Assembly: GCA_018335655.1 (NCBI GenBank) | Contig: JAGXRX010000014.1 | Span: 1 to 64,000 of the forward strand | Reading direction: 5' to 3' | Source: Erysipelothrix sp. | GTDB lineage: Bacteria; Bacillota_I; Bacilli_A; Erysipelotrichales; Erysipelotrichaceae | Length of the DNA stretch: 64,000 nt | Shown: one piece after another, positions 61,064 to 64,000 of the stretch | Layout: each line of letters begins with the position of its first letter | Position numbering within the stretch: position 1 is the first letter of the stretch | The notes under the pieces: generated by a model | The model's input: the letters and a program-made list of their open reading frames with translations, nothing else | Told to the model about the DNA's origin: nothing | Database searches by the model: none | Program-made: the position numbers and the translations under genes

Positions 61064-61094
61064 ATAATAGTCATGAAAATGACTATTATTTTTG
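61064..61094 (+). terminator. Terminator after the GGDEF gene
   Basis: ATAATAGTCAT-GAAA-ATGACTATTAT then T. GAAA loop, 11-bp stem. Confidence 0.92.
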
Positions 61095-61289
61095 TGGTAT
61101 AAATCAAAGATGACCATGGTTTTGATCTCAAGTCATCACTCATATACAGACTAGATCTAATGTATCAAAAGATACAATCATGTCACTTTTCTTTCACGAA
61201 TCTGAAACACAAATCACTTTTATGAAAACACTGTAAACACTTTATCTTAATGCTCTCTTATGGTACACTTCTACTGTTATGAGGTATCT

Positions 61290-61369
61290 AGATGAAATAC
61301 TCGTCAGACTTAACTCTATCAAGTCCTTTATCTAGCTAAGCATAGATCGTTATCACGACTATGTTTTTT
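61290..61369 (+). ncRNA. Unidentified structured leader with terminator
   Basis: CTAGAT (about 61289) can pair with ATCTAG (about 61331), enclosing GACTT-AACTCTATC-AAGTC. Then CATAG-A-TCGT-TATC-ACGA-CTATG and six T (61341-61369) form a terminator. The arrangement of aptamer-like stems plus terminator upstream of the purine riboswitch suggests another attenuator, but I do not recognise the class. Confidence 0.35.
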
Positions 61370-61387
61370 GTTTCATAACACTCTATC

Positions 61388-61458
61388 GTTTTGTATATCT
61401 GTGGAAATATGGTCCGCAAGTCTCTACCTCCTTACCCTAAATGAGGAGACTACAAAAC
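61388..61458 (+). ncRNA. Purine riboswitch aptamer, guanine class
   Basis: P1 pairs GTTTTGTA (61388-61395) with TACAAAAC (61451-61458). The core elements ATATGG, TCTCTACC and GACTAC are at the expected positions, with CCGCAAG and CCTAAATG loops like those of the xpt riboswitch. The base equivalent to position 74 is C (61450), which gives guanine/hypoxanthine specificity. Confidence 0.9.
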
Positions 61459-61496
61459 AAACGTAGGCTTTTTTAGCTATTTTTGTTTTTCACTAG

Positions 61497-61522
61497 AGAC
61501 ACCAGCCAAGGTGTCTTTTCTA
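61497..61522 (+). terminator. Riboswitch-controlled terminator before purE
   Basis: AGACACC-AGCCAA-GGTGTCT plus T run, 39 nt after the aptamer. With guanine bound P1 is stable and this hairpin can form, stopping transcription. Confidence 0.75.
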
Positions 61523-61537
61523 TTGAAAGGAGTGTTT

Positions 61538-62020
61538 ATGAATCCAATTCAAATCTCAGTCGTGATGGGTTCCATCAGTGATTACACGATCGTCCAAGAA
61601 ACAACCAAAATCCTTGAACAATTTCATGTTCCCTTTGAAAAGAAAGTGGTAAGTGCTCATCGTACACCACTTGATATGGTTGAGTATGCAACTCAAGCAT
61701 CTTCAAAAGGAATTCAAGTCATTATTGCAGCTGCAGGAGGTGCGGCTCATTTACCAGGGATGATTGCCTCATTAACCACCATTCCTGTCATAGGAATTCC
61801 TATAGAAAGCAAAGTCTTAAAAGGCATGGATTCTTTACTATCCATTGTGCAAATGCCTGCAGGAGTTCCAGTCTTAACAGTTGCGATTGGAATTGCAGGT
61901 GCTCGAAATGCTGCACTAGCTGCAATATCAATTTTAGCGCTTAATAATCAAGACCTAGCCACCGCATTAAAAGCCTATCGTGAAGATATGGCAAATCACG
62001 TGCGTGAAAGTGTTCTATGA
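61538..62020 (+). CDS. purE: N5-carboxyaminoimidazole ribonucleotide mutase
   Basis: 160 residues: [35 protein letters not shown] and [24 protein letters not shown] are the class I PurE blocks, including the SAHR active-site loop. It converts N5-CAIR to CAIR in purine synthesis. AAAGGAG at 61526-61532 supports the ATG at 61538. Overlaps purK by ATGA. Confidence 0.95.
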
Positions 62021-63093
62021 TGACTATCGGAATATTAGGGGGAGGTCAGTTAGGACTCATGATGGCACAAAGTGCAAAAAAACTTGGTCATAAGATTGTG
62101 GTACTTGATCCACATCTTCATTGTCCATGTGCTTCAATTGCTGATTTACATCTTTGTGCAGCCTATAATGATGCGAAAGCATTTAAGCATTTTGTAGACC
62201 AATGTGATGTGTGTACTTACGAGTTTGAGAATGCTGACGCAGTGCTTGTATCTCAATATGAATCGAAGTTTCCTCAAGGCTCACAAGCACTTAAGGTATC
62301 ATCACATCGTTTTTTAGAAAAAAACTTTGCAAGACAATGTGGATTTAACACACCAGATTTTTTTCTGGTTCAACAAAAATCTGATTTAAATAAGATCACT
62401 TCATTTCCTGTCATTATCAAAACATGTCGCTTTGGGTATGATGGCAAAGGACAATGGTTTATTAAAGATAAGACACAACTCAATGAGCTTGATCTAGATT
62501 TCACACATGAATATATCGTTGAATCCTTTATATCATGGAGTCATGAAATAAGTGTAATTGTATCACGCTCATCAAATGAGGTAGTCACTTTCCCTCCATT
62601 TGAAAACACACATATTCAAGGCATCTTAAGCTTAACGCAGTGCCCAAGTTCAGTCTTTGAATCTCTTCAAGCACAAGCACTTCAACAAGCACAAACACTC
62701 ATACAGTCTCTTGATTATTATGGTGTTTTAGCCGTTGAGTTCTTTATTAAAGATGATCAACTCATCTTTAATGAGTTTGCCCCAAGACCTCATAATAGTG
62801 GACACTGTACCATTGAATGTTTCTCACATAGTCAGTTCGATGTTCATGTGGCAGCAATCACTAAATCATTAATGCCTCAACCAGTTCAGATTCATCAAGG
62901 CATGATGATTAATATTCTAGGACAACACTACGAGTATGCTTATAACTTATTTAAATCACTCAATCATCCTCATTTAATATTCCATGATTATGGTAAGAAA
63001 GAACACAACTTTAATCGAAAGGTTGCCCATATCACATCGACAATTATGGACAAAGATTTATTAACTCAATTCACTTTAGGAGTAGAACTATGA
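62017..63093 (+). CDS. purK: 5-(carboxyamino)imidazole ribonucleotide synthase
   Basis: 358 residues, ATP-grasp fold. [21 protein letters not shown] at the N-terminus, [17 protein letters not shown] (ATP-binding), [15 protein letters not shown] and [22 protein letters not shown]. It makes N5-CAIR from AIR, ATP and bicarbonate, the substrate of PurE. It overlaps purE and purL by 4 nt each. Confidence 0.95.
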
Positions 63094-64000
63094 ATCGATT
63101 TTTCATTCAAAAGAAGCCTCATTTAGATGCTAACAGCAATAACTTATCTAAACAACTTTTTGATCAACTTGCACTTGATGTGCAAGTGTTTCTAATGAAA
63201 GGGTATGAAATAGATTCATTTGATCCTTCTTTAATGAATCAAGCTTTAACGCAAGTTTTGTCTGAACCTATGAGTGATATTGTGTATTCCCAACTTCCTA
63301 AGTCACTTGGAAGTGTCTTTATTAAAGAACCTCTTCCAGGACAGTTTGATCAACGAGCTGAGAGTACCTTACAATGTCTTAAACTCATGGATGTTCATAC
63401 TAAGGCGACTGTAAAGACCTTTGAAGTTGCTTCTTTTAATCGACAGTTATCGGATGAAGAATCAGAACAGTTTATATCATTATGGATTAATCCAATTGAA
63501 TCACGATTAAAAGACCTTAATGAGCAATCTAGTATGGATGAGCGAATGATTGATGATGGTTATATTGAAGATTTCACTTCCATGAGTGACGCTCAACTTA
63601 GCCTTTTTCTAAGTGAGCAATCTGCTGCCATGTCCCTTGATGATATTAAACTCATTCAAACATACTTTAAAGATCATGAAACACGCCAACCAACCATGAC
63701 TGAATTCAAAGTCTTAGATACATATTGGTCTGATCATTGTCGTCATACTACATTTGAAACTCACTTAGATCACATTGTTTTTGAAGAAGGACCACTTAAG
63801 AAAGTTATTCAAAACACCTTTGAAGAATATAAAGCATTAAGAACATCTACAAAAAGATCGCATAAACCAATCACACTTATGGACATGGCTACGATTGCCG
63901 CAAAAGCCATTAAAGATGAGCGTGTTGATTTAAGTGATGAAGTAAATGCATGCAGTGTCAAAGTGTCCTTAGAAGATCACAACAATGAAGAATGGTTAAT
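63090..64000 (+). CDS. purL: Phosphoribosylformylglycinamidine synthase (3' end outside window)
   Basis: The first 303 residues. The N-terminal domain reads [20 protein letters not shown] and the motif TYWSDHCRHTTFETHLD (about residues 211-227) marks PurL. The N-terminal region before that motif is about 210 residues, as in the single-chain enzyme of roughly 1200-1300 residues rather than the PurLQS split form. Cut by the window end. Confidence 0.93.
   Translation, partial: MNRFFIQKKPHLDANSNNLSKQLFDQLALDVQVFLMKGYEIDSFDPSLMNQALTQVLSEPMSDIVYSQLPKSLGSVFIKEPLPGQFDQRAESTLQCLKLMDVHTKATVKTFEVASFNRQLSDEESEQFISLWINPIESRLKDLNEQSSMDERMIDDGYIEDFTSMSDAQLSLFLSEQSAAMSLDDIKLIQTYFKDHETRQPTMTEFKVLDTYWSDHCRHTTFETHLDHIVFEEGPLKKVIQNTFEEYKALRTSTKRSHKPITLMDMATIAAKAIKDERVDLSDEVNACSVKVSLEDHNNEEWL

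Follow-up and report, generated by a model that had tools for sequence, protein, structure and literature searches.

The window analyzed here, 64,000 nucleotides from Erysipelothrix sp., is part of contig 14 of a draft genome measuring 1.65 Mb and runs into a purine operon at its 3′ end; the leader parts and purine genes described below lie on its forward strand. purE (61538–62020), an open reading frame recognized through PurE relatives, is followed by purK (62017–63093) and purL (63090–64000, continuing past the window end), both identified by protein reading. Proteins read further along the contig were those of purC, F, M, N, H, D and B, giving the order purEKLCFMNHDB with purE first, by its predicted proteins a complete operon for the full route to IMP and AMP. 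Both formyl-THF users, purN and purH, are inside it. The purE leader is preceded by a GGDEF-type gene that has a terminator-like hairpin of its own near 61065–61094. Among named relatives, the nearest is Erysipelotrichaceae bacterium UBA6182, with a PurE identity of 92%.

The guanine riboswitch before purE

An earlier note on this DNA had called a clear purine aptamer with C at the specificity position, and both points held. Rfam model RF00167 matched 61371–61472 with 77.3 bits (E 4.8e-12), exceeding the gathering cut-off of 37 bits, and the aptamer itself spans 61388–61458. C61450 occupies the specificity position of J3/1 (motif ACUA), making the aptamer guanine type. Its P1 stem pairs 61388–61395 with 61451–61458 and reached a probability of 0.36 in unforced folding. 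A predicted hairpin at 61452–61490 uses the 3′ strand of P1 and competes with it; T2, a second terminator-like hairpin before purE (61495–61518), was predicted alike with and without P1 and lies at the same place in relatives. This platform (61452–61518) is unusual in that the P1 competitor stands beside T2, not overlapping it.

Between the upstream terminator T1, described below, and the aptamer, UUCAUAACACUC (61372–61383) can base-pair, leaving one bulge, with the Shine-Dalgarno (SD) and start region of purE, GAGUGUUUAUGAA (61530–61542). The pairing is retained with another bulged base in L116, the only other species of the genus with purE, and missing in g8. Through it, the guanine switch might also control purE translation in this genus. 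The genome has a second purine riboswitch copy before a permease-like gene, with a promoter directly 5′ of its aptamer and nothing between. Within RF00167, the window aptamer is an ordinary guanine-type member, and only its upstream partner is unusual.

A short leader ORF ending at a terminator

Upstream of the aptamer, the earlier note had described paired stems followed by a strong terminator and had read them as another ligand sensor. The stems overlie a short ORF preceded by an SD of its own. An extended −10 promoter element, TGGTACACT (61261–61269), lies 31 nt 5′ of the ORF start codon, and transcription is expected to start near 61276, ~16 nt before the ORF. The SD, GAGG (61281–61284), stands 7 nt before the AUG, in the same position as in relatives. 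The ORF (61292–61339) has 15 codons, encodes MKYSSDLTLSSPLSS and ends in a UAA (61337–61339) that abuts the intrinsic terminator T1 (61338–61369). T1 consists of AAGCAUAGAUCG-UUAUCA-CGACUAUGUUUUUU followed by a run of six U (61364–61369).

Folding of 61270–61372 gave −23 kcal/mol (z −2.1), with 7 of 200 shuffles equally good. T1 was not picked up by a simple consensus terminator scan, probably because of its bulged A and low G+C. Comparison of 14 sequences from 9 genera gave 98.0% paired cells against 90.0 ± 1.5 in shuffles, 7 double-change cells against 1.8, and a covariation score of 0.414 against 0.267 ± 0.029, with none of 500 shuffles as high. Both fold and covariation bear out a terminator at this place, and the alignments indicate that the hairpin is conserved and covarying across genera. 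The stems before it fared less evenly: a hairpin, H1 (61288–61335), is indeed predicted between the ORF start region (61288–61296) and the ORF 3′ end (61327–61335), but in this form it is confined to the genus and not carried into other genera. Its pairing segments are identical in L116, so that the covariation analysis the note had called for is uninformative for H1. In addition, GUUAUGA (61276–61282), at the expected transcript 5′ end, is complementary to UCAUAAC (61373–61379) right behind T1, which gives the latter segment two possible partners.

Rfam searches of the stretch upstream of the aptamer yielded nothing credible, at the gathering cut-off or even at E ≤ 10; in particular, the ykkC/PRPP/ppGpp and ZTP (RF01750) classes had no match up to E 10. 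A DNA search of the genome found no further copy of the upstream element, the next-best match lying inside a coding gene.

Conservation and rearrangement across the family

PurE was sought across 273 family genomes, and the reading of purE upstream regions covered 90 of them. The order promoter, SD, ORF of 11–21 codons, T1, guanine aptamer and purE recurred in 14 genera; the arrangement is thus conserved in relatives, where its absence would have counted against a functional element. Under a strict rule (SD match ≥5, 8–32 codons, stop at −16 to +20 relative to the terminator), ten genera whose hairpin precedes the aptamer passed, compared with 1–9% of dinucleotide shuffles per locus. Genera g20, g44, g60 and g18 failed solely on SD score, SD spacing or hairpin delimitation; their leaders were assigned by visual reading. 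Start codon and T1 are a nearly constant distance apart (44–60 nt), and the stop ranges from about 14 nt before T1, as in g8, to about 17 nt inside it. An other-frame ORF in g8 that ends inside T1 (VHVTEG...) was rejected: a one-base length change in L119 destroys it, and the MNRIFG frame was retained as the leader ORF.

All 23 loci of the 14 genera have the promoter motif TGNTANNNT 31–39 nt 5′ of the leader-ORF start (shuffle chance 0.02–0.28 per locus). Between ORF and aptamer, an extended −10 was absent from all 23, and no matching promoter was found between T1 and the aptamer in the window. With the sole extended −10 located 5′ of the first element, polymerase must get past T1 before it reaches the aptamer, which upholds the earlier proposal of two attenuation steps in series. 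The same observations bear on another reading, in which T1 is just the end of a separate small transcript and purE is transcribed from a promoter of its own downstream of T1. The ORF might itself be a small gene, but the 23 loci offer no such promoter, the aptamers of L144 and L159 start within a few nt of the T1 U tract and leave no room for one, and the module keeps to purE; we regard this reading as extremely improbable. Among purine riboswitch loci of the same genomes not linked to purE, all 14 that could be classified were without such an ORF, most having a promoter directly before the aptamer. The module is not obligatory, as the g71 species L126, L127 and L129 keep the aptamer without it.

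Outside the family, an order search gave no additional purE leaders of this kind, and none was present in 20 purE upstream regions of a sister family. There (L243–L262), the usual layout is purE immediately after a gene read as fhs (10-formyl-THF synthetase), with neither leader nor riboswitch. Within the family itself, another genus has a ZTP riboswitch (RF01750, called in L187 and seen by eye in L188 and L190) before purE.

In g15, g37, g39, g40, g48 and g63, the modules are swapped, with the aptamer first and ORF and terminator right before purE; loci with this order are L141, L142, L138, L131, L162 and L181. A further group of purE leaders has ORF and terminator only, without an aptamer. 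The commonest rearranged type begins GGAGGTCTTACTTATGGTCTTAAGAAGATT (MVLRR...). A pattern scan for this MVL type hit 19 of 268 genomes, once per genome and in 13 genera, with zero hits for the reversed control pattern; in every case with a mapped purE, the hit is just in front of that gene, and one hit is at a contig end. The MVL-type hairpin around SD and AUG had 92.5% paired cells (against 72.6 ± 2.2) and a covariation score of 0.433 (against 0.113 ± 0.031). A one-base insertion in L178 shifts the peptide frame and keeps the stem, indicating that the RNA, not the peptide, is conserved. Its loop, UGGUCU, is mostly conserved (L177, L167, L195, L158, L154 and others). Rfam has no entry for the MVL-type leader, and on this comparison its hairpin appears a good motif candidate in its own right. 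The purE leaders of L196 and L198 share a conserved start, GGTAACGGA-ACCC-GTCGGGT-AAGGATGGAGCTATGGCG, and have longer leader ORFs (~35 codons) and no Rfam match.

A covarying hairpin of this kind, together with the stem segments conserved in the two species of the window's genus, could speak for a ligand- or protein-binding RNA in 61276–61340 that controls ORF translation or T1 and is a real second sensor. The upstream stretch of the window, however, has no Rfam match and no conserved unpaired, aptamer-like core across genera, and the middle of the ORF is variable. We therefore consider a second sensor improbable, and the idea of a first element sensing PRPP, ppGpp or ZTP gives way to a different description, in which the conserved parts are the promoter, SD, start codon, a short ORF with its stop at T1, and T1.

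The peptide, the ribosome and the signal

Leader peptides are not conserved across genera, as illustrated by MNRIFGSTKSK, MTLTNARSCPILNSTV, MTLLSKYTVSLSSTIN, MFLDVRKSTFSKTYQ and MITNRLNQLHDVMIFLGT. The UBA6182 ORF matches that of the window in length and place but reads MKCFSILTLPRSLSS, with six codons different, all non-synonymous. Close species pairs twice gave 0 synonymous and 6 non-synonymous codon changes, although such pairs are few and a weak measure of selection on the peptide. On the sequences compared, the leader peptide appears to be under no visible selection, with the middle of the ORF free to change. These data weigh against an amino-acid attenuator or arrest peptide, in which stalling at certain codons or on the peptide would set T1. 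A leader ORF plus terminator would suit it, as would the serine codons of the window peptide (6 of 15). Yet no amino acid is common to the leader peptides of all genera (serine occurs in 11 of 14), and besides the substitution pattern in sister species, pairing of the T1 arm with a trp-like antiterminator was not above shuffles across loci. The stop-to-T1 spacing is also unlike that of amino-acid attenuators, which keep more than 20 bp between stop and terminator (PMC4824070). This makes the amino-acid or arrest explanation very improbable. Two specific pairings were tried and rejected: AUCUA (61330) can pair with UAGAU (61343) in the window and showed no enrichment across loci relative to shuffles; the T1 3′ arm pairs well with AAACAAACGUAG behind the aptamer in g1 and g8, but this low-complexity pairing is not retained in g53 and g71 and was dropped.

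Conserved SD, start, in-frame stop placement, terminator and one linked gene place the element in the general class of leader-ORF attenuators. The upstream element is probably a translation-coupled, pyrBI-like transcription attenuator, acting in series with the guanine riboswitch and controlling the whole purEKLCFMNHDB operon. Promoter, SD, ORF, the stop next to T1, T1 covariation and the purE link are established by comparison; readthrough of T1 by ribosome blocking, and the signal, we infer. T1 would be closed by default and opened by a ribosome close behind the polymerase. With the polymerase ahead of the ribosome, T1 would fold right behind the ORF and transcription would stop; with the first ribosome reaching the ORF end, its footprint would cover the T1 5′ arm and the polymerase would read through. 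The act of translation, not the peptide, would count. Past T1, the transcript would meet the guanine aptamer, and plentiful guanine would lead to termination or a block of purE. The logic gate on purine synthesis proposed in the earlier note would thus survive as "ribosome keeping up" AND "no guanine", without ligand sensing as its first input.

The stops lie so near T1 that a ribosome could block it. In E. coli, the ribosome represses a terminator that follows a stop codon by only a few nt, and termination is complete only when the gap exceeds 27 nt (PMC4824070); by these spacing data, window-type stop-to-T1 distances fit the pyrBI class. Early in an E. coli reading frame, within its first 100 bp, terminators are seldom blocked, as coupling is not yet established, and normal UTP leaves the pyrBI terminator active (PMC4824070, PMC5021804). 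In B. subtilis, RNA polymerase outruns the ribosome (PMC9226507), an uncoupling that we take as a caution against a ribosome-coupled reading. Further points against it are that the SD in the window is only GAGG, that the AUG lies inside the predicted H1 and that the g8 stop, 14 nt before T1, is at the edge of a ribosome footprint.

The likeliest signal would be a polymerase slowed by shortage of purine nucleotides, as a purine counterpart of E. coli pyrBI, which would give feedback of the right sign. Only tentatively do we propose the fuller picture, in which such a counterpart senses polymerase slowing in series with the guanine riboswitch (an AND NOT gate), its module exchanged within one Firmicutes family and standing ahead of the riboswitch, behind it or without it. 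The second likeliest signal would be translation-initiation capacity (fMet-tRNA and 10-formyl-THF, itself a purine precursor). With the same anatomy, low fMet-tRNA through short 10-formyl-THF, or low initiation capacity, would leave the ORF untranslated, T1 closed and the 10-formyl-THF-requiring purine pathway off. The strongly covarying hairpin that holds SD and AUG of the related MVL-type ORF favors this signal, as do the formyl-THF users in the operon, the sister-family purE genes directly behind fhs, and a Streptococcus fthC uORF motif proposed as a fMet-tRNA sensor (PMC11109978). It is without a direct link to fMet, however, and the covarying SD hairpin differs from that of the window; we consider it rather unlikely.

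Leader-ORF attenuators are already a known kind. The window element resembles E. coli pyrBI (pyrL), where a leader ORF of a nucleotide operon is translated to an intrinsic terminator that ribosome proximity, not the peptide, opens (PMC5021804, PMC4824070), the likeness here being one of anatomy only. pyrBI is a pyrimidine operon with a 135-bp ORF containing the terminator, whereas the window has a purine operon and ~15 codons ending at T1; the serial guanine riboswitch is particular to the window, and the NTP-sensitive pause of pyrBI is putative here. The fthC motif (uORFC-39-1, PMC11109978) likewise has SD and AUG by hairpins, a stop in a hairpin, a terminator behind, a one-carbon-linked gene and translation initiation as proposed signal. 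It differs in gene and lineage and in having its stop in a separate hairpin, P2, rather than at or in the terminator, and no serial riboswitch is reported for it. The ilvB-II and trp-type attenuators share leader ORF and terminator, but the window has no regulatory codon run or antiterminator, and its stop adjoins the terminator. Guanine–PRPP tandem riboswitches, already known (PMC5912903), also set a guanine aptamer and a second input before purine genes as a two-input gate; their second input is a PRPP aptamer of the ykkC type, with one shared terminator, unlike a leader ORF with its own. A literature search, incomplete in coverage, returned no purE leader ORF, nor one combined with a guanine switch.

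A leader ORF whose peptide changes freely is easily overlooked by RNA-motif or protein searches, and Rfam holds none for purE. The natural rearrangements, with the module before, after or without the aptamer, provide existing pairs for testing how attenuators in series combine. If the reading is right, purine control would have a second, translation-based input, and guanine riboswitches a new partner in a two-input gate.
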